A model generated the notes under the pieces. The model was not told where the DNA came from, did no database searches, and saw nothing but the letters and a program-made list of their open reading frames with translations. Positions 4,740 to 48,420 of a DNA stretch of 64,000 nucleotides are shown here, piece after piece. How positions within the stretch are numbered: the stretch's first letter is position 1; the number at the start of each line of letters is the position of its first letter. The stretch covers positions 1,488,472-1,552,471 of the forward strand of contig OY282448.1 of NCBI GenBank assembly GCA_958296175.1. Reading direction: 5' to 3'. This DNA comes from an uncultured Chloroflexota bacterium. Its GTDB lineage: Bacteria; Chloroflexota; UBA11872. The translations under genes and the position numbers were made by a program.

Positions 4740-5732
4740 TCAGGCAATCAGCCGGATGGGACCCACGCGCTCGCGGTCCAACACCCGAATCGTGTCCACG
4801 AACCGAATCGTCGCGGCCGCCAGGTCCATCACCAGCGAGTGCGTGCGCGCCCCGCCGCCAAAAAATCTGACCCCGCGCAGCAGCTCGCCGTCCGTCACGC
4901 CGGTCATGCTGAAGGCAATGGCGCTGCCGCTGGCCAGATCCTCCGTGCACAAGACCTGCGATGCGTGGTTGTGGACGCCCATGGCCTCCAGGCGTTCCAC
5001 TTCGGCTTGGTTGCGGGGACGGAAGCGCGCCTGAATCTCGCCGCCCAGACAGCGCAGCGCCGCCGCGGCCAGCACGCCCTCCGGCGCGCCGCCGGTGCCC
5101 ATCACCACGTGGTCGGCCGTGCCGGCCACCGCCACCGACACCGCCGCCACCAGGTCGCCGTCGGCAATCAGCTTGATGCGCGCGCCAGCCTCGCGCACGT
5201 CCGCAATCAGCCGCCGGTGGCGCTCGCGGTCCAGCACGATCACGGTCAAGTCCGACACCTGGCGGCTCAGCGAGTCGGCAATGATTTGCAGGTTGGCTTC
5301 CACCGGATAGTCGATGTTCACGCGCCCCGCCGCCGGCGGGCCCACGATGAGCTTTTCCAAATACGTGTCGGGCGCGTGCAGCAGCCCGCCCGGCTCCGAA
5401 ATGGCCATCACCGCAATCGCGTTCGAGCGCCCGCTGGCCACCAGGCTGGTGCCTTCCAGCGGGTCCACCGCCACGTCCACGCGCTGCCCGTGCGGGTCGC
5501 CCACGTCCTCGCCGATGTAGAGCATGGGCGCTTCGTCGCGCTCGCCCTCGCCGATCACGATCCGCCCCGACAAGTGCACCGCCTCCAGCTCCCGCCGCAT
5601 GGCCTTCACCGCCAGCGCATCCGCCCGCGGCCCATCCCCATGCCCCATCGCCCGCGAACTGGCCACCGCCGCCGCCTCCGTCACCCGAACCAACGCCTCC
5701 GTCGGCGGCCCAGACGTCTCCACTCCGCTCAC
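4740..5732 (-). CDS. glpX: Fructose-1,6-bisphosphatase class II
   Basis: A 330-residue GlpX-type bisphosphatase of the lithium-sensitive phosphatase superfamily. Metal-binding motifs are intact: GEGERDEAPM (61-70) and DPLEGT (90-95), followed by the conserved MGTGGAPEGVLAAAAL. It hydrolyses fructose-1,6-bisphosphate to fructose-6-phosphate in gluconeogenesis, and in some bacteria also sedoheptulose bisphosphate. It heads a minus-strand unit with the small exported protein and the PfkB kinase. A fragment of its 5' end (codons about 10-52) is present again near 8535-8665 as part of a chimeric pseudogene. Confidence 0.95.
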   Translation of the reverse strand: MSGVETSGPPTEALVRVTEAAAVASSRAMGHGDGPRADALAVKAMRRELEAVHLSGRIVIGEGERDEAPMLYIGEDVGDPHGQRVDVAVDPLEGTSLVASGRSNAIAVMAISEPGGLLHAPDTYLEKLIVGPPAAGRVNIDYPVEANLQIIADSLSRQVSDLTVIVLDRERHRRLIADVREAGARIKLIADGDLVAAVSVAVAGTADHVVMGTGGAPEGVLAAAALRCLGGEIQARFRPRNQAEVERLEAMGVHNHASQVLCTEDLASGSAIAFSMTGVTDGELLRGVRFFGGGARTHSLVMDLAAATIRFVDTIRVLDRERVGPIRLIA

Positions 5733-5903
5733 AAACCCCCCACGCGCATATCCGCCAACAGCCGGCGGTGGTCGTTCATCGGGCCAGCTTACGGGATGCG
5801 TCGAGGAACTGGGCGCAACGGCGGCGCAGTCAGCCGGCGCCGCCGACGGCGGGCCCGTACGCAGCAGAAATGCCGTATGCTGCGGGGTGCGCCCAGAGCG
5901 GCG

Positions 5904-5925
5904 GCGGGAAGCGTAGACTTCCCGC
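5904..5925. other. Short perfect hairpin in the glpX upstream spacer
   Basis: Arms GCGGGAAG (5904-5911) and CTTCCCGC (5918-5925) enclose a 6-base loop. The site lies in the 265 bp between the divergent starts of glpX and the DUF262 gene. It has no T-tract, so it is not an obvious terminator. It could be an operator or chance in GC-rich DNA. Nothing else was recognised in this spacer. Confidence 0.3.
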
Positions 5926-5997
5926 GCCTAGCTCGATCGACTCGGGAGGGAACCAGGCGGCGGCCGCCGCGCCTGCAAACCGCAAGGAGACCCCAAA

Positions 5998-8265
5998 CTG
6001 AGCGATACGGCATTTACGCAGGTCACGTTTCCCCTGGGCACGCTCATCGACAACATCGCAATGGGCGAGATTGGGCTGCCAGATATCCAACGGCCGTTCG
6101 TCTGGCCAAACACCAAGGTGCGCGATCTGTTCGATTCGATGTACCGAGGGTATCCCGTTGGCTATCTGCTCTTTTGGGCCAACGGTCTGAGTGCTGGACA
6201 CAAGACCGTTGAGATAGGACGTCAAGCACCTGCGCCCAACAAGGTCATCGTCGATGGACAGCAACGGTTGACGTCGCTCTATGCCGTGGTGAAAGGCGTG
6301 TCCGTTGTTCGCAACAACTACAAGAGCGAGCGCATCCGTATCGCCTTCGATCCGATCGAGGAGAAGTTCGAGGTAGCGAGCGCTGCAATCGAACGCGACA
6401 GATCGTTCATCCCCGACATTTCAGAACTTTGGAGTAACAATGCCGACCTGTTTCAGATCGTAGGTGACTTTCTGAGCGGCCTGCGTTCTGTCAGAAACGT
6501 GACAGACGCCGAAGTCAAGCGAATTCAGGCGTCCATCGTGAAGCTCCAAGGGATGCTCAGATTTCCATTTACAGCCTTGGAGCTCTCGGCCGATACGTCC
6601 GAAGAAGCAGTTGCGGACGTATTCGTTCGAATCAACAGCCAAGGCAAGCCGCTCAACCAAGCCGATTTCATCCTGACGCTCATGTCGGTCTTTTGGGACA
6701 AGGGTCGAGAGGAGCTGGAAAGATTTTGCCGGCGGGCGCGCGTCCAGTCAGCAGGCGAACCGTCGCCCTACAACTCATTCATCGAACCCTCGCCGGACCA
6801 GATGCTGCGTGTGGGCGTGTGCCTGGCGTTCAAGCGCGCCAGACTCGAGCACGTCTACTCAATATTGCGCGGCAAAGACCTGGAAACCGGAGCGTTCAGC
6901 GCCGAACGCAGGAGCACCCAATTCACACAGCTGCGCGAGGCTCAGACGAACGTCTTGAACTTGCAGCACTGGCACGACTTTATGAACTGTCTCCGGCACG
7001 CCGGATACCGATCGCGCCGGATGATCAGTTCGCGGAATGCGCTGCTGTATGCCTACACGCTGTACTTGATCGGCAGGACGGAATACGGCATCGCCGAGCA
7101 CACGCTGCGGCAAGTCATCGCCCAGTGGTTCTTCATGTCAGCGGTGACCGGTCGATACACGGCATCGCCAGAGTCCCGGATGGAGTCGGACTTGGCCATG
7201 CTTCGAGGCGTGACTACCGCCGATGCGTTCGTGGACCGGCTGCGCAGCGCATGCAACGTTTCCCTGACGAACGACTTCTGGGACGTGACACTGCCCAACG
7301 ACCTTGCCACGTCGTCAGCCCGCAGCCCTTCGCTGTTTGCCTATGAGGCGGCGCTGGTGCTGCTGGATGCGCCGGTGCTGTTTTCCAAGCTCACGTTATC
7401 CGACATGATTGCCGAATCGCCTTCTGGCGTCACGTCCATCGAGCGTCATCGTCTGTTTCCTCGTGGATATCTGGCGAAACTCGGTATCACGGCAACCAGA
7501 GACGTCAATCAGATAGCAAACTTTGCGTACGTCGAATGGGCGGATAACGTCAGGGTCTCCGATAAATCCCCGGCGGAGTATCTGCCGCTGGCGAAACGAG
7601 ACCTCAGCGAATCCGGCTCGGTCAGTGAAATAGACATCGTGCAGATGTACAAATACCACGCGCTGCCCGACAATTGGGAGCACATGGACTACGCGGCGTT
7701 CTTGACGAGCCGCCGTGAACTCATGGCGAAGACTGTGCGCGATGGGTACGAGCGGATTGCCGCAAAGTCCGACACCGCAAAGCCATCTGACGAAATCGAC
7801 GTCGATGAGATCATCCGCAGCGGAGAGTCGGGTATCGTCGAGTTCAAGTCGACGCTGCGGGTCAACATGCACACAGGTCAACGCGATAAACGCATGGAAC
7901 AAGCCGTGCTCAAGACGTTGGCCGGATTCCTCAACAAGGACGGCGGCACGTTGATCGTGGGCGTCACCGACGACGGAACACCCGTTGGTCTCGACGCCGA
8001 CGGGTTCGACAACGAAGACCGCATGTGGCTGCATCTCGTCAACATGGTCAATCAGAATATGAGCAAGAGTGTGTGGGCCTTCATGCACGCCGATTTCGAC
8101 GACTCTACCGACGGCCGCGTCTTTGTGATCCGCTGCGAAAAATCCAGCGTTCCCGTCTACGTGACCGACGGCGACAACGAGCGTTTCTACGTGCGGACCG
8201 GCCCGTCGACGACCGAGCTTTCAGTCAAGCAAGCCTTGGAGTACGTCGGGCAATGGTTCAAGTAG
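5998..8265 (+). CDS. DUF262 (GmrS/ParB-like) protein fused to AlbA_2 DNA-binding domain; CTG start
   Basis: A protein of about 755 residues. The N-terminal DUF262 domain has the typical opening (VTFPLGTLIDNIAMGEIGLP, then DIQRPFVW at about 29-36) and the DGQQRLTSL motif near residue 87 that is needed for NTP hydrolysis in GmrS-type enzymes. The C-terminal part (from about residue 600) is an AlbA_2/Schlafen-like domain: ESGIVEFKSTLR, then GFLNKDGGTLIVGVTDDG. The usual GmrD partner domain DUF1524 is absent. I place the start at CTG 5998, because AAGGAGA lies 7 bases upstream and this start restores the conserved N-terminus that the first ATG (6061) would cut off. The likely role is defence against modified or foreign DNA. 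Base composition is AT-richer than the flanking metabolic genes, which suggests transfer. Confidence 0.85.
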   Translation: MSDTAFTQVTFPLGTLIDNIAMGEIGLPDIQRPFVWPNTKVRDLFDSMYRGYPVGYLLFWANGLSAGHKTVEIGRQAPAPNKVIVDGQQRLTSLYAVVKGVSVVRNNYKSERIRIAFDPIEEKFEVASAAIERDRSFIPDISELWSNNADLFQIVGDFLSGLRSVRNVTDAEVKRIQASIVKLQGMLRFPFTALELSADTSEEAVADVFVRINSQGKPLNQADFILTLMSVFWDKGREELERFCRRARVQSAGEPSPYNSFIEPSPDQMLRVGVCLAFKRARLEHVYSILRGKDLETGAFSAERRSTQFTQLREAQTNVLNLQHWHDFMNCLRHAGYRSRRMISSRNALLYAYTLYLIGRTEYGIAEHTLRQVIAQWFFMSAVTGRYTASPESRMESDLAMLRGVTTADAFVDRLRSACNVSLTNDFWDVTLPNDLATSSARSPSLFAYEAALVLLDAPVLFSKLTLSDMIAESPSGVTSIERHRLFPRGYLAKLGITATRDVNQIANFAYVEWADNVRVSDKSPAEYLPLAKRDLSESGSVSEIDIVQMYKYHALPDNWEHMDYAAFLTSRRELMAKTVRDGYERIAAKSDTAKPSDEIDVDEIIRSGESGIVEFKSTLRVNMHTGQRDKRMEQAVLKTLAGFLNKDGGTLIVGVTDDGTPVGLDADGFDNEDRMWLHLVNMVNQNMSKSVWAFMHADFDDSTDGRVFVIRCEKSSVPVYVTDGDNERFYVRTGPSTTELSVKQALEYVGQWFK

Positions 8266-21865: not shown

Positions 21866-22052
21866 GTGAGGCCGAACCGTCCACTGCCTCTCTCCCCTCT
21901 CCCCGCACGCGAGAGACGGGCGCAGGGACGGGCGCAGGGACGGACGCAGGGACGTTCCCTTCTCCCGCGAGCAGGAGAGGGCAGGGAGGCGGTGGCGGGT
22001 CGGGGCCTGTCGAGTTTCCCCTCTCCCGCGAGCGGGAGAGGGTCAGGGTGAG
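21866..22052. repeat. Intergenic GAGAGGG palindrome cluster (element copy A) with 12 bp tandem repeat
   Basis: The region holds a perfect hairpin of 11 bp arms (22019-22029 and 22032-22042, CCCTCTCCCGC and its complement with a 2-base loop), followed by TCAGGGTGAGGG. An imperfect second hairpin lies near 21957-21981. A 12 bp unit (GACGGGCGCAGG) is repeated three times at 21915-21950. The same core palindrome and CAGGGTGAGGG tail recur at 36206-36405, 38337-38480, 41998-42034 and 48305-48420, always between genes. Confidence 0.8.
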
Positions 22053-22139
22053 GGTCTTCCGCCCCGGTGCGCCAGATGCTCGCCGCGCGTCACCCTCAGC
22101 AGCCTTTTCCACTCGTGACTGCTTGCAGCGCGGGCGGCG

Positions 22140-25100
22140 GTGGCCTACTATCCGTCGCGCTGCCGCAAGCGAGCCGAGGACCCGATCACCGTGGGCGTCA
22201 TCAACGTCTTCCTGGGCGGGACAGGGAAGTTCGTCGCCGAGGAACTGAAAGGCCTCTCGACGCATTACGACCTCGAGCTCCCAGCCTTTATCGCCTTCGA
22301 CCTGAGCCACGAGGACACGCACACCGGCATCTTTGCGCTGGGAAGCGACTTGCTGGCGCCGCACAAGAGCTTCCAGGACACCGTCAGCGGCGTGACGGTT
22401 CCCACCTGGGCGAACATGGACGCCGGCAAGGGGCTGGCGCCCAGCCCCCACCGTCCAGGGCCCAGACAGCGGCCCGAAGTCGCGGTCATGAGCCAGATTG
22501 CGCGCCAAATGCGGGACATCCCCGCGCTGGCCGATGGCCTCTGGGGGTTGCGCGCCTCGGGCCTGCCGGCTTTCGCCGCCTTCATGTCCCCCGACCTCAA
22601 GGGGGGCGAGGCCGATGCGTCCACGCAGTTCAAGCGGCGCGTGCGAGCCGCGCTGAATGCGGCGGGACCGGGCGGACAACCAATCACGGTCAACATCGTC
22701 GCCTCCACCGCTGGAGGCACGGGCGCCGGATTTTTTCTGCCACTTGCCCTCTGGCTGCGCCAAACACCAGTCCCTTCGAGTCTCACCATCAACCTCGTTC
22801 TCGTCGTGTCGAGCGCATTCGACAACGAGCCGCTCGATGCAGGCTCGAGCCTGCTTGCCATGCAAAGCAAAGGCCGCACCGGCACGTTTGCCATCATTCG
22901 CGAACTGGATCTGTTGCAACGCGCCGATCAGCAGACGACCTTTGCCGAGCGGCGTTTCCCAATCCACACCGGCAATACTGCTGACCTGACGTACCAGCTG
23001 GGCGAGCGCCTGTTCAATCGCGTCTACTGGGTGGGCCGCCGTGACGCGGATGTGGCGGCGAGGAAGGAAGACGTTTACGCCGAAACCGATCCGTTGGTGC
23101 GCATCCTCGGCGACGTTGAGGCCGCCAACAATCTGGATGCGAGGACCGGCGATGAGGCGCAGCGCCTGCTGCCGTCCGTCGTAACCATCGACTACCCGAG
23201 GCTGGACTATGCCCGCCGCGAGAGCAGCCGCTTGATCGAGCAAGCCATGCAACGGCTGATCGACGGCGGGCAGGCGCCCGATTTCGACCATGACTTCTTT
23301 GCCTACCCAGGCAACAATCCTGGTGCATTCGGCAAGTTTCTGAAAGACAATAAGTCTTTGTTGTCCGCCAATGAAATCGACGCCATGCCGAAGGCAGAGC
23401 CGAGAAATGTCGATGACCTCGTCGGTTCCTTCACGGACGAACATAACTTCGAACAGATTCCGAAAGGCGTCGCCCTACAACCTGCGGGGTACAATGCCAA
23501 TGCCGACCAGTGGACCGCATACTGCGAGGCGATGTCCAGCAACCTGGAACAGCGGCGGCAGCGGATCACGGAACGCATCGACCAGGTAGTACGCGACCGC
23601 GTTCTCGAGGAAGTCGAGTCGTACCGAAAGTACGTCGTGCGTGTTTCCAAAAAGCACCTTGCGCACGAGGGCGGCCCGTTCTCATTGGATTCGCTGGGAC
23701 GGACCATCGAGAAGCATGACGACGGACGGCGTCGGGTCGAGAAGTTCTTCGGCGAAGGGCTCAGTGCGATGCTCCCGGGGAACTTGAAGAGCCGCAAATA
23801 CTCGTCACCCGAGGGCGTGCGCGAACAAATCAAGGCGCAGTCCCGTGAAATGCAGAAGCCGCGTGCCGCAACGACGGACGGCGGGCTTTCACTGGGCAGA
23901 TGGGTCGTTACCGTGTTGGTAGCAGCGGTGTTCGGCGTCATCGCCTGGGCCCTCATCGGCACGGCTGGAAATCCAATCCCTGGAAACCCACTCCCCCGGT
24001 TCCTGGGCACCGTGGGGATAATCATACTTGTGGCCGCGGTGATGTTCAACCTCTTGAAGGGCAAGGGCAAAGGCAAGTCGACGGGTGAACTTCGCAGAGG
24101 GTCCGAGGCCGACCTGATCAGACGCTACGAGGACTGGATCTTTGCTTACGCAGGCTTTGCGCTGCTAAAAGAAATCAAGGAAAGTTTCGTCCCGAGCGCA
24201 CAGAAAGCCGTGCGCCAACTCGAGGAACGAGCAGACGAGCTCCGCACGGTCTACGAGGAACTCCAAGAGTCCGCGCATGCAGTGGCCATCGGCGAGTATC
24301 GACCTCCATTGCACTCGATAGGTCAAGTTGGGATCGACCCCGCCGGCCTTGACGTGTACACGTCGCAACTGATGGACGCACTCGTCCGCAGCATTCGCGT
24401 CATGCCGCGTTCGACGGGCAACAGTCTCATCACAGACCTGCGCATCGAGGTCAAGTCGCATGACGGGGGCGCGCCCATCACCGGCAACGTGCGCGAGTTG
24501 GCCGCGACGATTGAGGCGAAAAAAGCTGCTAAAGACCTCTACGGCGCGGCCACACTCGGGGAATTGAACTTTTCCAGCATCAACCAGGCCATTGACCGTC
24601 GCTCCACGACTGCGCTGGCCCACTACTTGCCGCTCACGTTTGCGGAGGCACTCAGGAAAGATGCTGGGGACGGTCACCTAGAATTGCTCGACGAGCACTT
24701 GGCCGCCTTAGTGCACATGTCGCCTGCCGGTGAGGGGCTGAGAGGCCAAGACCGCCGTAACAGCTCTGTGGACTGTAGGAAGACGAACGCAAACCTCCAG
24801 CGCCTATACGTCCCCTCGTCAGAAGTACAAGGACTCGTGGCTCGGTGCATGCAGGGCCAAGGCGGACTGCTGCGCGAACCCGTCATCCGAGCGCTCAGAG
24901 ACTGCATGGGTCCCGGCGGCACACCAATCGTCGTTCCCGCATTGGGAGCGTCGATTGCACTCCTGTCCCTATGGGCGCCAGACGAAAGCACTTTCGGTTG
25001 GTCGCCCACCAGTATCATGGACACCGACGAAGGTCATCGGGCGCACGACACATATTACGGCGCAACGCCCGCGGCGAAGGAAAGTGGATCTACGCGCCAA

Positions 25101-25772
25101 AGCGTCCGTAACTTCCACATCTTGCCCGAGCTGTCGGCTGCCGCAGCCATCGAGTGCGCCGTTGCGACGCCCGAGCCATTGGTTCCGAGCGTAACGGCGC
25201 GTCTACTGGGAAGCCATCCCGATTCTCAAGGGCCAACGTTGCTCGAGTTGTTTTATCTCCTGCGAACCGACGAAACGATCACGTCATCGACCGACCGTGA
25301 TCCCGTCGACCCCCTGCAGACCTGGAGCATCCAGCATGGCGGCCAGTCGATTCGACTGATTCGGCAGTCAGTGCTCGACTCGTCGGCTCAAAACGATGTC
25401 TTCGGAGGCGGTCGGGGGTTCGTGAATGCCTTCGACGCGTTCCAAGACTTCATGCTGTACGACGGCGTGCCCGGAGGCTTGCAGAAGAACCTCGGCAAAT
25501 TCGCCGTCTCTGTCGGCGCTGAAGCGATGTCGAAGGAGTGGGAGGACGTTGCCGAACTTGCACGCATGCAGACCTCACTCGTCCAGCGATGGGGGACGTT
25601 CGACAGGCGCAGATCCGCGGATGACGAGTACGCCGCTATGCGCGCCCTCCTGCGCGACGACGTTGACGAGATGGGGCGGGCAAAGGCGGCGCGGGATTGG
25701 CTGCGTGCCGTCGATTTCGTGCTAGCTGCAGGCCATCAGAGGCGGCTCCGACTTGCAGCCGCGCATGCGTAG
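22140..25772 (+). CDS. Tubulin/FtsZ-like protein with two internal membrane helices
   Basis: A 1210-residue protein. The N-terminal third looks like a divergent tubulin-superfamily GTPase: a first strand and loop ITVGVINVFLGGTGKFVAEE (16-35) and the nucleotide-phosphate loop NIVASTAGGTGAGFFLP (185-201), a match to the tubulin signature GGGTGS/TG. Two hydrophobic helices lie at about 585-605 and 621-640 (WVVTVLVAAVFGVIAWALIG and GTVGIIILVAAVMFNLL), followed by a basic GKGKGKS. The C-terminal half is soluble and unassigned. It starts at GTG with no clear ribosome binding site. The next gene overlaps it and codes for a vWA membrane protein, so they probably act together at the membrane. Large tubulin-like proteins beside vWA genes are known from comparative genomics; the function is unproven. 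Confidence 0.8.
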   Translation: MAYYPSRCRKRAEDPITVGVINVFLGGTGKFVAEELKGLSTHYDLELPAFIAFDLSHEDTHTGIFALGSDLLAPHKSFQDTVSGVTVPTWANMDAGKGLAPSPHRPGPRQRPEVAVMSQIARQMRDIPALADGLWGLRASGLPAFAAFMSPDLKGGEADASTQFKRRVRAALNAAGPGGQPITVNIVASTAGGTGAGFFLPLALWLRQTPVPSSLTINLVLVVSSAFDNEPLDAGSSLLAMQSKGRTGTFAIIRELDLLQRADQQTTFAERRFPIHTGNTADLTYQLGERLFNRVYWVGRRDADVAARKEDVYAETDPLVRILGDVEAANNLDARTGDEAQRLLPSVVTIDYPRLDYARRESSRLIEQAMQRLIDGGQAPDFDHDFFAYPGNNPGAFGKFLKDNKSLLSANEIDAMPKAEPRNVDDLVGSFTDEHNFEQIPKGVALQPAGYNANADQWTAYCEAMSSNLEQRRQRITERIDQVVRDRVLEEVESYRKYVVRVSKKHLAHEGGPFSLDSLGRTIEKHDDGRRRVEKFFGEGLSAMLPGNLKSRKYSSPEGVREQIKAQSREMQKPRAATTDGGLSLGRWVVTVLVAAVFGVIAWALIGTAGNPIPGNPLPRFLGTVGIIILVAAVMFNLLKGKGKGKSTGELRRGSEADLIRRYEDWIFAYAGFALLKEIKESFVPSAQKAVRQLEERADELRTVYEELQESAHAVAIGEYRPPLHSIGQVGIDPAGLDVYTSQLMDALVRSIRVMPRSTGNSLITDLRIEVKSHDGGAPITGNVRELAATIEAKKAAKDLYGAATLGELNFSSINQAIDRRSTTALAHYLPLTFAEALRKDAGDGHLELLDEHLAALVHMSPAGEGLRGQDRRNSSVDCRKTNANLQRLYVPSSEVQGLVARCMQGQGGLLREPVIRALRDCMGPGGTPIVVPALGASIALLSLWAPDESTFGWSPTSIMDTDEGHRAHDTYYGATPAAKESGSTRQSVRNFHILPELSAAAAIECAVATPEPLVPSVTARLLGSHPDSQGPTLLELFYLLRTDETITSSTDRDPVDPLQTWSIQHGGQSIRLIRQSVLDSSAQNDVFGGGRGFVNAFDAFQDFMLYDGVPGGLQKNLGKFAVSVGAEAMSKEWEDVAELARMQTSLVQRWGTFDRRRSADDEYAAMRALLRDDVDEMGRAKAARDWLRAVDFVLAAGHQRRLRLAAAHA

Positions 25773-28344
25773 TCGGCCGCAGGCGGTGCGGCATTTGTCT
25801 GCGGCGAGCGTGGCCGTGGCGGTGTCCACGGTTGTCGCCGTATTGCTCCTGGCCCTGCCGGCCACCGTCAGCGGGGACGCCCCCGACGCGGCCGACATCG
25901 TGCTTGCCATCGATCATTCCCTCTCGATGGAGCGCAGCGACCCCGACGGGGAGCGCGTCAGCGCCGCGCGCGGCCTGATCGACTCGATCGCCACGTTTAC
26001 CGATTCGTTCGACCTGCGCATCGCCGGCATTGGGTTCGGCAGCCCCCACGTGTTCGACGCGGCGTCGGCGCCGCGCATCATCCTGCCGCTCTCGGACGCG
26101 GAAACCCCAGGACTGCGCGAGGAGTTTCGAGTCGAGCGCATGTCGGGCACCGACTTTCAATCCGCGTTGTGTCTGGCCTGGCGCGTGGCCATCGGCATGC
26201 GGCCGCCCGTGGACGCGCAGTGCCCGCCGGCCGCGATCGACGCCGACCTGGGAACCACGCCCTCGGAAGACCCGGGGCGCGGGAAGGTCGTGGTGCTCAT
26301 CACCGACGGCGGACCCGCGCCGCTCGGCGGCGCGCTCGCGCAGTCGAGCGCGCCGGACGCCGCATGCCCGGCGGACGCGCTGGCGCAGATTGCCAGCACC
26401 GCGGACGAGGGCGTGTACATGTGCGGGCTGGCCGAATCCTGGGCCGCGCTCACCGCCAGATTTCCCGTCGAGCTGTTCGTCGTTGGCATCGACGCGCGCG
26501 ACCAATGGTTCCCCAACACGCAGAATGCGTGGCGCGAAATTACGCAGTGCGAAGGCGAGCAGGACTGCGACCGCCGCGTGGTGCGCGTGCCCGACCCAGC
26601 CGCGCTCACGCGCGAGATACTCGAGGCCGCAACGGGCGGGACCACGAACCTGTGCCTGCGGGACGAGGGCATCAGCAAGTGCATCTTGCCGGCGGGGTTG
26701 CGCGAGGTTCACTTCAACGTAACCAACGTGGGCGGCGACGATCGAATTACGGTGACAGCGCCCGACGGCCAGCGCGTGCATGAGGGCGACGGCCGCACAC
26801 AGGTTCGAACCGTTGGCCAATCGCAGCGCTGGCGAATCGTGGCGCCGGAAAAAGGCGAGTGGCGCGTCGAATCCGACCGGCAAGATTCCAGCCTCTTCAG
26901 CCTGATGCTCCCGGCGCAGTTTCAAGTTGCGCCGGCGCCGGCGGCGCCGTCCACGGAATCGAGCATCGCGCTGACGGCATCGCTGCTGACGGGGGATGAC
27001 ATCCACGCCGGCTCTCTGGAAAGCCAGCAATTCGAGCTCGAACTGGTGCACGACGGCCAGGACCAACCATCTCGCAAAGTCATGTTCCAGGGGGTGCAGG
27101 ACGGCGCAACGTTCGACGTCACGTCCGTCGACGGCGGCGACGCCATCGGCACGCTCGACATCGGCCGCTGGACGGCGCGGTTGTCGCAATTTATTCAGGA
27201 CCCGCTGACGGGCGAGCTCGACCGCCTGGTGTTTGGCAGCGTGACGTTCGTGGTGGCGGAACACGTGCCCACGCCCACGCCCACCCCAACACCTCCACCA
27301 ACGCCCACGCCCACCCCCACGCCAACCCCAACGCCGTCACCGACGCCCACGGCCACACCCACGCCAACGCCCCCGCCAACCCCCACGCCTTCGCCCACCC
27401 CCACGCCCGTCCCCACGCCCACGCCAACCCCGACCCCCGTACCGACCTGCGACGCCGCCGCGCCCAAAGACATCCGCTTCGAACCCGAGGAGCCGCAGGT
27501 CGACGCCTGGCGGTTCGGGTTCGACCCGAGCGAAGGTTTCACCTTCCGCTTCCGCAACACGCATGCAGCCGTGGTGTCCGAGCTGGAAGGTTGCGCGGCA
27601 GTTGCCGAAATTCAGGTGCGGCTGAACGCCGCGCCGTCTGGCGAAGCCGCGCCCGAGTGCCCGGACTGCGAAGCAACCGCAGCCGGTCTGCCGCCCGTGC
27701 GGGTCGAGGCCGCCGTGCCGCTGCCCGCAGGGGAGCGCGCCCAGTACGAGCGCAGCCTGTGGGTACAGGTCGATGGCGAATGGCAGTTGCTGGCGTCCGA
27801 GGAACTGACGGTCGTCGTGCCGGAATGGGCGGCATACGAGCCGTGGTCGAAGTGGGCCGTCTTGGCCGTGATCGGCATGCTCACGCTCGTGGGACTGTCC
27901 TACTACTCCACGCGAACCGTGCGCCACCGTCTGGACGACCACGACCACTACGACGACGACGGGACGCGCGTGTGCGACATCGACGTCGTGCAAGCCGACG
28001 GCCTGGGGGCGCCCATCGTCAGGCTCGGGTTCTTCGCCTGGCGCCGCGCGGCAATCGACCGGGACGAGGAAGTGCCGCAGGCGTACCTGTCGCTTGGATG
28101 GTTCGTGGCCGGCCCGCTGGTAGCTCGGTTCCGATCCCCGGCCCCGCAGGTGGATGATCTGCTCGACGACGAGCTGCAGTCGTCAGGCGCGGCCGCCGCC
28201 GGCCGCAACCTGTGGGCCGCCGTGCGCGGCATGCGAACGCTCCTGGTCGGACGGCGGCTGCGCCATAAGTCGTTCCAGATCAGCGAGGAGCGCGAAGGCG
28301 AACTCGAGCTGGTGCGGAGCACCGAGGCGGATCGGCTCGACTAG
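25753..28344 (+). CDS. vWA-domain single-pass membrane protein with Thr-Pro stalk
   Basis: An 863-residue protein. An N-terminal signal helix (VAVAVSTVVAVLLLALPATVSG) is followed by a von Willebrand A domain with an intact metal site: DHSLS (D54, S56, S58), SGTDFQSAL (Thr near 134) and ITDGG (Asp near 185). A beta-rich region, a stalk of alternating Thr-Pro of about 60 residues, a second domain, one transmembrane helix near 700-718 (WAVLAVIGMLTLVGLSYYST) and an acidic then basic cytoplasmic tail of about 145 residues follow. So the vWA domain lies outside and the tail inside, where the tubulin-like partner could bind. The start may be TTG 25753 (AGAGG 10 bases upstream) or ATG 25765; both overlap the upstream gene. 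Confidence 0.8.
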   Translation: MQPRMRSRPQAVRHLSAASVAVAVSTVVAVLLLALPATVSGDAPDAADIVLAIDHSLSMERSDPDGERVSAARGLIDSIATFTDSFDLRIAGIGFGSPHVFDAASAPRIILPLSDAETPGLREEFRVERMSGTDFQSALCLAWRVAIGMRPPVDAQCPPAAIDADLGTTPSEDPGRGKVVVLITDGGPAPLGGALAQSSAPDAACPADALAQIASTADEGVYMCGLAESWAALTARFPVELFVVGIDARDQWFPNTQNAWREITQCEGEQDCDRRVVRVPDPAALTREILEAATGGTTNLCLRDEGISKCILPAGLREVHFNVTNVGGDDRITVTAPDGQRVHEGDGRTQVRTVGQSQRWRIVAPEKGEWRVESDRQDSSLFSLMLPAQFQVAPAPAAPSTESSIALTASLLTGDDIHAGSLESQQFELELVHDGQDQPSRKVMFQGVQDGATFDVTSVDGGDAIGTLDIGRWTARLSQFIQDPLTGELDRLVFGSVTFVVAEHVPTPTPTPTPPPTPTPTPTPTPTPSPTPTATPTPTPPPTPTPSPTPTPVPTPTPTPTPVPTCDAAAPKDIRFEPEEPQVDAWRFGFDPSEGFTFRFRNTHAAVVSELEGCAAVAEIQVRLNAAPSGEAAPECPDCEATAAGLPPVRVEAAVPLPAGERAQYERSLWVQVDGEWQLLASEELTVVVPEWAAYEPWSKWAVLAVIGMLTLVGLSYYSTRTVRHRLDDHDHYDDDGTRVCDIDVVQADGLGAPIVRLGFFAWRRAAIDRDEEVPQAYLSLGWFVAGPLVARFRSPAPQVDDLLDDELQSSGAAAAGRNLWAAVRGMRTLLVGRRLRHKSFQISEEREGELELVRSTEADRLD
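27268..27450 (+). repeat. Thr-Pro coding microsatellite (stalk)
   Basis: About 180 bp of alternating ACx-CCx codons inside the vWA gene, encoding TPTPTPTPPPTPTPTP-type sequence with a few Ser, Ala and Val breaks. Such linkers form extended, often glycosylated, spacers that hold a domain away from the membrane or through the cell wall. Length is likely to vary between strains by slippage. Confidence 0.85.
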
Positions 28345-41997: not shown

Positions 41998-42034
41998 CCG
42001 ACCCTCACCCTAACCCTCTCCCTCGAAGGGAGAG
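41998..42034. repeat. GAGAGGG element (copy D)
   Basis: A single copy between mnmE and the FAD oxidoreductase: ACCCTCACCCTAACCCTCTC followed by CCTCGAAGGGAGAGGG, in the same orientation as copies B and C. The rest of the 335 bp gap shows nothing else recognisable. Confidence 0.75.
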
Positions 42035-48304: not shown

Positions 48305-48420
48305 TTCTTTCCCCTCTCCCTGAGAGGGAGAGGGTTAGGGTGAGGGTCCACGCCGTCGAGCCAGAGATGATCGAGATCCGTCACCCTGCGAGGGAGAAGG
48401 ATAGGGTGAGGGTCCACGCC
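48305..48420. repeat. GAGAGGG element (copy E), two tails, abutting a start codon
   Basis: CCCTCTCCCTGAGAGGGAGAGGG forms the palindrome, followed by TTAGGGTGAGGGTCCACGCCG. The tail sequence is repeated at 48400-48420 (TAGGGTGAGGGTCCACGCCG), ending 3 bases before the ATG of the solute-binding protein at 48424. The orientation is opposite to copies B-D. Confidence 0.75.

Follow-up and report, generated by a model that had tools for sequence, protein, structure and literature searches.

Can a tubulin-like GTPase be built into a membrane and work together with a receptor that faces outward? This question is raised by two overlapping genes in a 64,000-nucleotide stretch of a Chloroflexota genome (contig OY282448.1; the whole stretch is referred to as the window, and coordinates are given within it). 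The family to which the first gene belongs, FtsZl1 (Tubulin_2), and its vWA gene neighbours were reported by Makarova and Koonin, who predicted in 2010 that a machinery for membrane remodelling has FtsZl1 at its core (PMC2875224); a preliminary description of the locus had rightly stated that such neighbourhoods were already known from comparative genomics. A superfamily study of 2023 treated Tubulin_2 separately because it is sparsely distributed and irregular in architecture (PMC9871819). One crenarchaeal FtsZ-like protein has been noted to have N-terminal transmembrane (TM) helices (PMC2875224), and our literature search, made mostly outside subscription journals, found neither an experiment on the FtsZl1/Tubulin_2 family nor a membrane-spanning tubulin-like protein resembling the one described here. 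We conclude that the pair is very probably a single-chain, membrane-anchored version of the FtsZl1-vWA system. The family and its vWA neighbourhood were known; what is added is the architecture, in which a membrane hairpin lies within the chain that bears the GTPase motifs.

The first gene encodes a divergent Tubulin_2 protein

The open reading frame of gene 1 (22140-25772, + strand) counts 1210 codons from its first GTG, and the preliminary description had taken it at that length. The frame does exist, but GTG 22191 is the better start and gives a protein of 1193 amino acids (22191..25772), because the N-termini of congeneric proteins align with VGVINVFLGG: three of them open with MSTINVFLGG or MGVVNLFIGG (MSTINVFLGGSGKY or MGVVNLFIGGSGKY). 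To judge from this alignment, a start at 22140 probably adds 17 codons that do not belong to the gene, since the congeners lack them.

The protein matched Pfam Tubulin_2 (PF13809) over residues 25-260 of the 1210-residue frame with 33.3 bits (E 4e-8; curated cut-off 27), and in a search of the whole genome it matched with 36.5 bits (E 2.9e-9; cut-off 27). This match, the strand-helix pattern of a structure model and profile matches to FtsZ delimit a tubulin/FtsZ-like GTPase core of residues 1-360 (22191..23270, + strand). Within it, the T1 phosphate loop FLGGTGKF (22209..22232), whose GGTGKF motif forms residues 9-14, has invariant G9, G10 and G12, and T1 is kept in all four congeneric proteins apart from T/S variation. 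The T4 tubulin/FtsZ signature STAGGTGAG (22704..22730), contained in STAGGTGAGFFLP at residues 172-184, is invariant among the four, and S172 and GGTGxG are invariant across 29 aligned members of the Tubulin_2 family. The divergent GTPase signature claimed for the first gene is borne out both by the family match above cut-off and by the retained motifs. A conserved SVVTIDYPRL element follows at the 3' side of the core (23175..23204), and its proline is common to soluble Tubulin_2 proteins and the pseudo-tubulin paralogues considered below.

The distance from canonical members of the superfamily is large. As in canonical FtsZ, CetZ and TubZ, the T1, T4 and T5 loops occur in the same order, whereas the length of 1193 amino acids, the membrane hairpin and the lack of a recognisable T7 loop or FtsZ C-terminal domain, both of them elements of FtsZ polymerisation, set gene 1 apart. 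It reached only 12.4 bits against PF00091 (cut-off 33) and gave no match to FtsZ_C or Tubulin_C. A comparison of the gene 1 family profile with canonical FtsZ from the phylum (24 proteins) gave matches at T1 (E 9e-5) and, in the correct order, at T4-T5 (E 0.003); reversed FtsZ sequences used as a control gave nothing comparable. Searched against the PDB, the core profile returned TubZ at the top, at the T4 motif (E 0.45), and the full family profile returned nothing but a repressor and proteins that are designed or helical.

An AlphaFold model of the full-length protein was of moderate quality (mean pLDDT 59, pTM 0.37). Its N-terminal region shows the alternating order of strands and helices expected for the tubulin/FtsZ superfamily, and Foldseek matched the model to CetZ2, CetZ1 and tubulin with probabilities of 0.91-0.93 and E-values of about 0.2-0.3, ranked behind matches, none of them significant, that its long helices gave to dynamin-like proteins and helical pore-formers. 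The structural check proposed in the preliminary description thus returned a tubulin match of high probability but weak E-value; it does not refute the tubulin fold, to which the model lends moderate support.

Beyond the core no Pfam domain was found above cut-off. Long predicted helices occupy residues 438-555 (23502..23855; model helices 438-490, 499-527 and 540-555) ahead of the hairpin, and the C-terminal region (24081..25769), which is kept in the subfamily, consists of a helix of 70 residues (631-700) and a mixed domain whose model is poor. Helices 438-555 and 631-700 of the model give gene 1 the extended helical middle by which FtsZl1 is recognised.

Two transmembrane helices lie in the middle of the chain

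The two mid-chain helices that had been proposed are well supported by hydrophobicity, and all TM assignments in this study come from hydrophobicity scales rather than from a trained topology predictor. TM helix 1 (residues 571-590; 23901..23960) scores 10.0 kcal/mol over residues 571-589 and TM helix 2 (residues 604-622; 24000..24056), which is followed by the basic stretch KGKGKGKSTGELRRG, scores 9.4 kcal/mol on the Wimley-White octanol scale; the range among the congeners is 6.8-11.3 kcal/mol, against at most 4.7 kcal/mol in control members of the family. Sequence identity among congeners is low in this stretch while hydrophobicity is retained, as expected of TM helices. The short loop between the helices is nearly uncharged and the stretch after helix 2 is strongly basic, a positive-inside pattern from which both large parts of the protein are predicted to be cytoplasmic.

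A hairpin in this position distinguishes the subfamily from all other Tubulin_2 proteins with intact motifs that were counted. With the window excluded, 68 such proteins were available, three from congeners and 65 others; the hairpin is present in all four congeneric proteins when that of the window is included, and in none of the 65. The exact single-chain architecture is limited to four genomes, three of which are drafts.

The second gene encodes a receptor-like vWA protein

Gene 2 (ORF 25753-28344, + strand, 863 codons) overlaps gene 1 by 8 nt if it starts at ATG 25765 (25765..28344, 859 amino acids) or by 20 nt if it starts at TTG 25753 (863 amino acids). The protein appears secreted and anchored, and the layout first proposed for it (overlap, signal peptide, vWA domain with a full MIDAS, Thr-Pro stalk, one TM helix and a tail) was confirmed; the complete order is signal peptide, vWA domain, β-sandwich, Thr-Pro stalk, second β region, one TM helix and a tail of 141 amino acids.

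The vWA domain (25885..26652) was assigned from its MIDAS residues and from fold matches to SpaC and 4fx5. Numbered from TTG 25753, the MIDAS comprises D54-x-S56-x-S58 (25912-25926), T133 (26149-26151) and D185 (26305-26307), and all five residues are invariant among congeners. Pfam VWA_2 gave only a weak match below cut-off (E 0.015). The structure model of gene 2 is of low overall confidence; with it, Foldseek found the SpaC pilus adhesin (E 6e-9), gave a probability of 1.00 to both SpaC and the solved vWA protein 4fx5, and also retrieved integrin beta headpieces. By the fold match of this low-confidence model, gene 2 resembles the SpaC pilus-tip adhesin and integrin beta headpieces in having a vWA domain with a complete MIDAS followed by β-sandwich domains; it differs from them in its TM helix and cytoplasmic tail, and its own role in adhesion is putative.

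The β-sandwich region after the vWA domain (26653..27252), drawn from the strands of the model, matched Pfam GBD_Hemicentin weakly and below cut-off (E 0.003). It is followed by the Thr-Pro stalk (27253..27438), which in one orthologue (genome G002) is replaced by a different, longer sequence. The single TM helix (27844..27918) precedes the conserved cytoplasmic tail (27919..28341), for which no Pfam match was found. Identity to the most distant congener is 38% in the tail and 37% in the vWA domain, compared with 28% in the β regions and TM helix. The protein has 11 invariant cysteines, every one of them on the outer side of the membrane and not in the tail, which, together with the positive-inside pattern around the hairpin of gene 1, agrees with the predicted topology of the pair. 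The tail was also compared with the vWA tails of other loci, some of which are of the FHA type, and showed no recognisable resemblance to them.

The two genes occur together or not at all within the genus

Gene 1 was found in four of 13 genomes of the genus, and in these four, and only there, it is adjoined by the full vWA gene; the remaining nine have neither. The co-occurrence that had been proposed as a check is therefore seen, and the two genes were not found apart. Other matches of the vWA search in the genus lay only in or around the Thr-Pro stalk. All four congeners keep the same gene order and the genes overlap or nearly abut, whereas the flanking genes differ, so the pair appears to move or to be lost as a unit.

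The nearest Pfam-annotated neighbours in the window are genes for 3-hydroxyacyl-CoA dehydrogenase and pyruvate dehydrogenase E1 and E2. In other congeners the pair sits on contigs other than those that carry the E1 dehydrogenase genes, and a search of 1.5 kb of upstream sequence did not turn up the 3-hydroxyacyl-CoA dehydrogenase gene. The E1 genes are themselves conserved in congeners, and a clean insertion of the cassette between conserved flanks is unsupported. No P-loop GTPase, protein kinase or OmpA gene was recognised among the flanking genes of the pair; such neighbours are frequent but not required in FtsZl1, and membership in the family stands without them. Two canonical ftsZ genes are present elsewhere in the same genome, which makes a role of gene 1 in division unlikely.

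Two further features of these regions were recorded. A REP-like element, GGGAGAGGGT(C/T)AGGGTGAGG, occurs at 22035-22053, just upstream of gene 1, and again at 42003-42021 and 48327-48345; the genome holds 103 matches with at most two mismatches, and the reversed control pattern had none. Near the pair of one congener, a different second vWA gene (L028:4989-6380, 463 amino acids) lies on the opposite strand beside a gene for a MerR-like regulator.

Related loci divide the same parts among different chains

Of 400 Chloroflexota genomes, 45 gave Tubulin_2 matches, some of these matches being weak and on frames of ordinary FtsZ length. A first scan of a genome collection with the single gene 1 protein as query returned no relative, and viral contigs likewise yielded no relative of gene 1. 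Loci were compared in 37 stretches around the Chloroflexota matches and in 58 named loci from a further genome-collection scan. A vWA gene adjoins Tubulin_2 in many other Chloroflexota, in Bacteroidota and Clostridia and in some cyanobacterial loci, and in 20 of 68 surveyed loci it stands immediately before it.

A common order is a vWA receptor, a soluble Tubulin_2 protein with GGTGSG and then a large protein. In 18 of the loci, an automatic rule assigned a mid-chain two-TM hairpin to the product of the gene that follows the intact-motif Tubulin_2 gene. In several Chloroflexota this hairpin-type protein is itself a Tubulin_2 relative in which both T1 and T4 are destroyed, with GRLG in place of GGTG, for example. 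Direct Tubulin_2 matches to the next gene were obtained at L059 (E 1e-16) and, more weakly, at L075 and L078; the second protein of L117, which is without a hairpin, matched below the Pfam cut-off (E 3e-5). Family HMMs linked the pseudo-tubulins to the soluble proteins along their length, a result of iterated search and hence generous, and an independent profile comparison of pseudo-tubulins with soluble Tubulin_2 was only suggestive (E 0.0014). These sequence profiles suggest a tubulin fold for the paralogues.

The two-tubulin Chloroflexota loci (for example L059, L085, L090 and L075) share with the window a vWA receptor, a Tubulin_2 protein and a mid-chain hairpin, but there the hairpin is carried by a second, motif-less Tubulin_2-like paralogue and the intact tubulin is soluble. 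No second Tubulin_2-like hairpin paralogue was found in the 13 congeneric genomes with a profile that, as a positive control, recovered held-out members in two of four other genomes. In a tree, the gene 1 family fell among the intact-motif proteins and apart from the pseudo-tubulins, with long branches and an SH-aLRT of 85, which is not firm support. A profile comparison of the gene 1 family with the hairpin paralogues was not significant (E 0.008, probability 5%), and we therefore claim for the two hairpins only a similar position in the chain and not a common origin.

Several loci depart from the common order. In L059 (1-13510), PP2C and Ser/Thr kinase genes precede a vWA gene with an FHA cytoplasmic tail (5526-7814), which is followed by two Tubulin_2 genes; the locus looks like a phospho-regulated version of the vWA-Tubulin_2 system. 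FHA-type tails beside kinase and PP2C genes argue that the vWA tail has an intracellular signalling or binding role, and in the lineages that have them they point to signal-dependent recruitment. In L070 (9299-19840) a single frame of 3513 amino acids combines a pair of Tubulin_2 domains with several predicted TM helices, possibly a natural fusion of the tubulin pair. A contig binned as Acidithiobacillus ferrivorans (L117) carries a vWA-tubulin-tubulin locus very like that of the Chloroflexota locus L124, through either horizontal transfer or misbinning. Cyanobacterial loci (L101, L102 and L113 among them) mostly follow a different, fixed arrangement, with a one-TM protein of about 380 amino acids before Tubulin_2 and a protein of about 550 amino acids after it that has TM segments near residues 10, 110 and 165.

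Discussion

The window pair shares with FtsZl1 as defined in 2010 (PMC2875224) an FtsZ-like N-terminal core with GGTGxG, a helical middle, a unique C-terminal region, a neighbouring vWA gene with an intact MIDAS and a canonical FtsZ elsewhere in the genome. It differs in the two mid-chain TM helices of a chain with GTPase motifs, in a vWA gene that follows gene 1 rather than preceding it, in being a unit of two genes only and in its examined flanks, where genes for a kinase, P-loop GTPase or OmpA were not recognised. Among the relatives examined, the anchor is usually carried by a separate partner protein, and the window pair packs the GTPase-motif head and the anchor into one chain. Elsewhere a common design seems, from sequence comparison, to combine a vWA receptor with a catalytic tubulin that is soluble and a pseudo-tubulin that is held in the membrane. 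That receptor, GTP-binding tubulin and hairpin recur in several lineages with varying distribution among chains supports a membrane-held GTPase unit beside a receptor.

The explanation that we favour overall, and regard as reasonably probable, is that the tubulin-like GTPase and the vWA receptor form a local scaffold of the envelope. A cytoplasmic, GTP-binding tubulin-like head would sit on a helical stalk and be anchored in the inner membrane by the two-helix hairpin, while gene 2 would provide a single-pass receptor with its vWA domain outside on the Thr-Pro stalk and its conserved tail facing the tubulin-like protein. The tail would recruit or orient that protein, GTP binding and hydrolysis would switch its self-assembly at the inner face of the membrane, and a ligand or metal at the external MIDAS would set the site of assembly. 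The outcome would be a local membrane or envelope scaffold separate from the division ring. That the two proteins are functionally coupled, presumably by binding to each other, is likely; GTP-driven self-assembly of gene 1, with the polymerisation and GTP hydrolysis that it implies, has a little under an even chance. The contact with the tail, the link across the membrane (outside-in or inside-out) and the biological process are inferred.

The most serious alternative is a non-polymerising GTP switch or scaffold tethered to the membrane, with the nucleotide-binding head as a regulatory module of a receptor complex. We consider this less likely than the assembling scaffold but a genuine contender. 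The elements of the FtsZ filament are unrecognisable in gene 1, FtsZl1 proteins generally being without an identified T7 loop or FtsZ C-terminal domain (PMC2875224), and an integral anchor on each subunit would be unusual for a dynamic filament. Moreover, the Chloroflexota partner paralogues have lost their GTP motifs and are nevertheless retained, so the tubulin fold can serve without catalysis. In the gene 1 family, however, both the T1 and the T4 loop are strictly conserved, and the GGTGxG of T4 is intact in 68 proteins, although this motif was also the criterion by which they were counted.

A second alternative would make gene 1 a dynamin-like or pore-like machine, with its helices and hairpin acting as stalk and paddle to bend or perforate the membrane upon GTP hydrolysis. 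The top Foldseek matches of the whole model are hairpin-bearing helical pore-formers together with BDLP, Mgm1 and OPA1, and long helices do lie on either side of the hairpin in the model. These matches are non-significant (E 0.007 or worse, rmsd above 25 Å) and driven by the long helices, the head has the motifs of tubulin rather than dynamin, and the flanks of the hairpin are typical of ordinary TM helices, all of which make such a machine improbable.

About equally improbable is a system of defence or inter-bacterial conflict. vWA domains are reported to recur in NTP-dependent conflict systems (PMC7159879), and the patchy presence of the pair, in four of 13 congeners and at non-matching genomic places, would suit such a role. 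PADLOC, however, gave no match for the pair, no effector domain was found, no defence genes were recognised among the annotated neighbours, and the export of the vWA domain with its conserved cysteines suggests a role in the envelope. Finally, although the exact subfamily is confined to one genus, chance adjacency without joint function is very improbable for genes that stand in the same order, overlapping or nearly abutting, in four of four congeners despite differing surroundings, and whose counterparts have vWA directly before Tubulin_2 in 20 of 68 surveyed loci.

An integrin-like reading of the pair is plausible. More speculatively, the system may be a bacterial counterpart of the link between integrin and the cytoskeleton, in which an external metal-dependent domain is coupled through its tail to a membrane-embedded, GTP-driven tubulin assembly; in general, vWA-FtsZl1 systems would then work through an asymmetric tubulin pair made up of a soluble, catalytic member and a pseudo-tubulin held in the membrane, with both jobs done by one chain here.

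In summary, the membrane anchor would belong to the tubulin system itself, as a hairpin placed either in a motif-free paralogue or, as in the window, in the chain with the GTP motifs. The two-gene unit of the window is the smallest version found and hence convenient to reconstitute, and the comparison supplies a concrete and checkable model for a system predicted in 2010.
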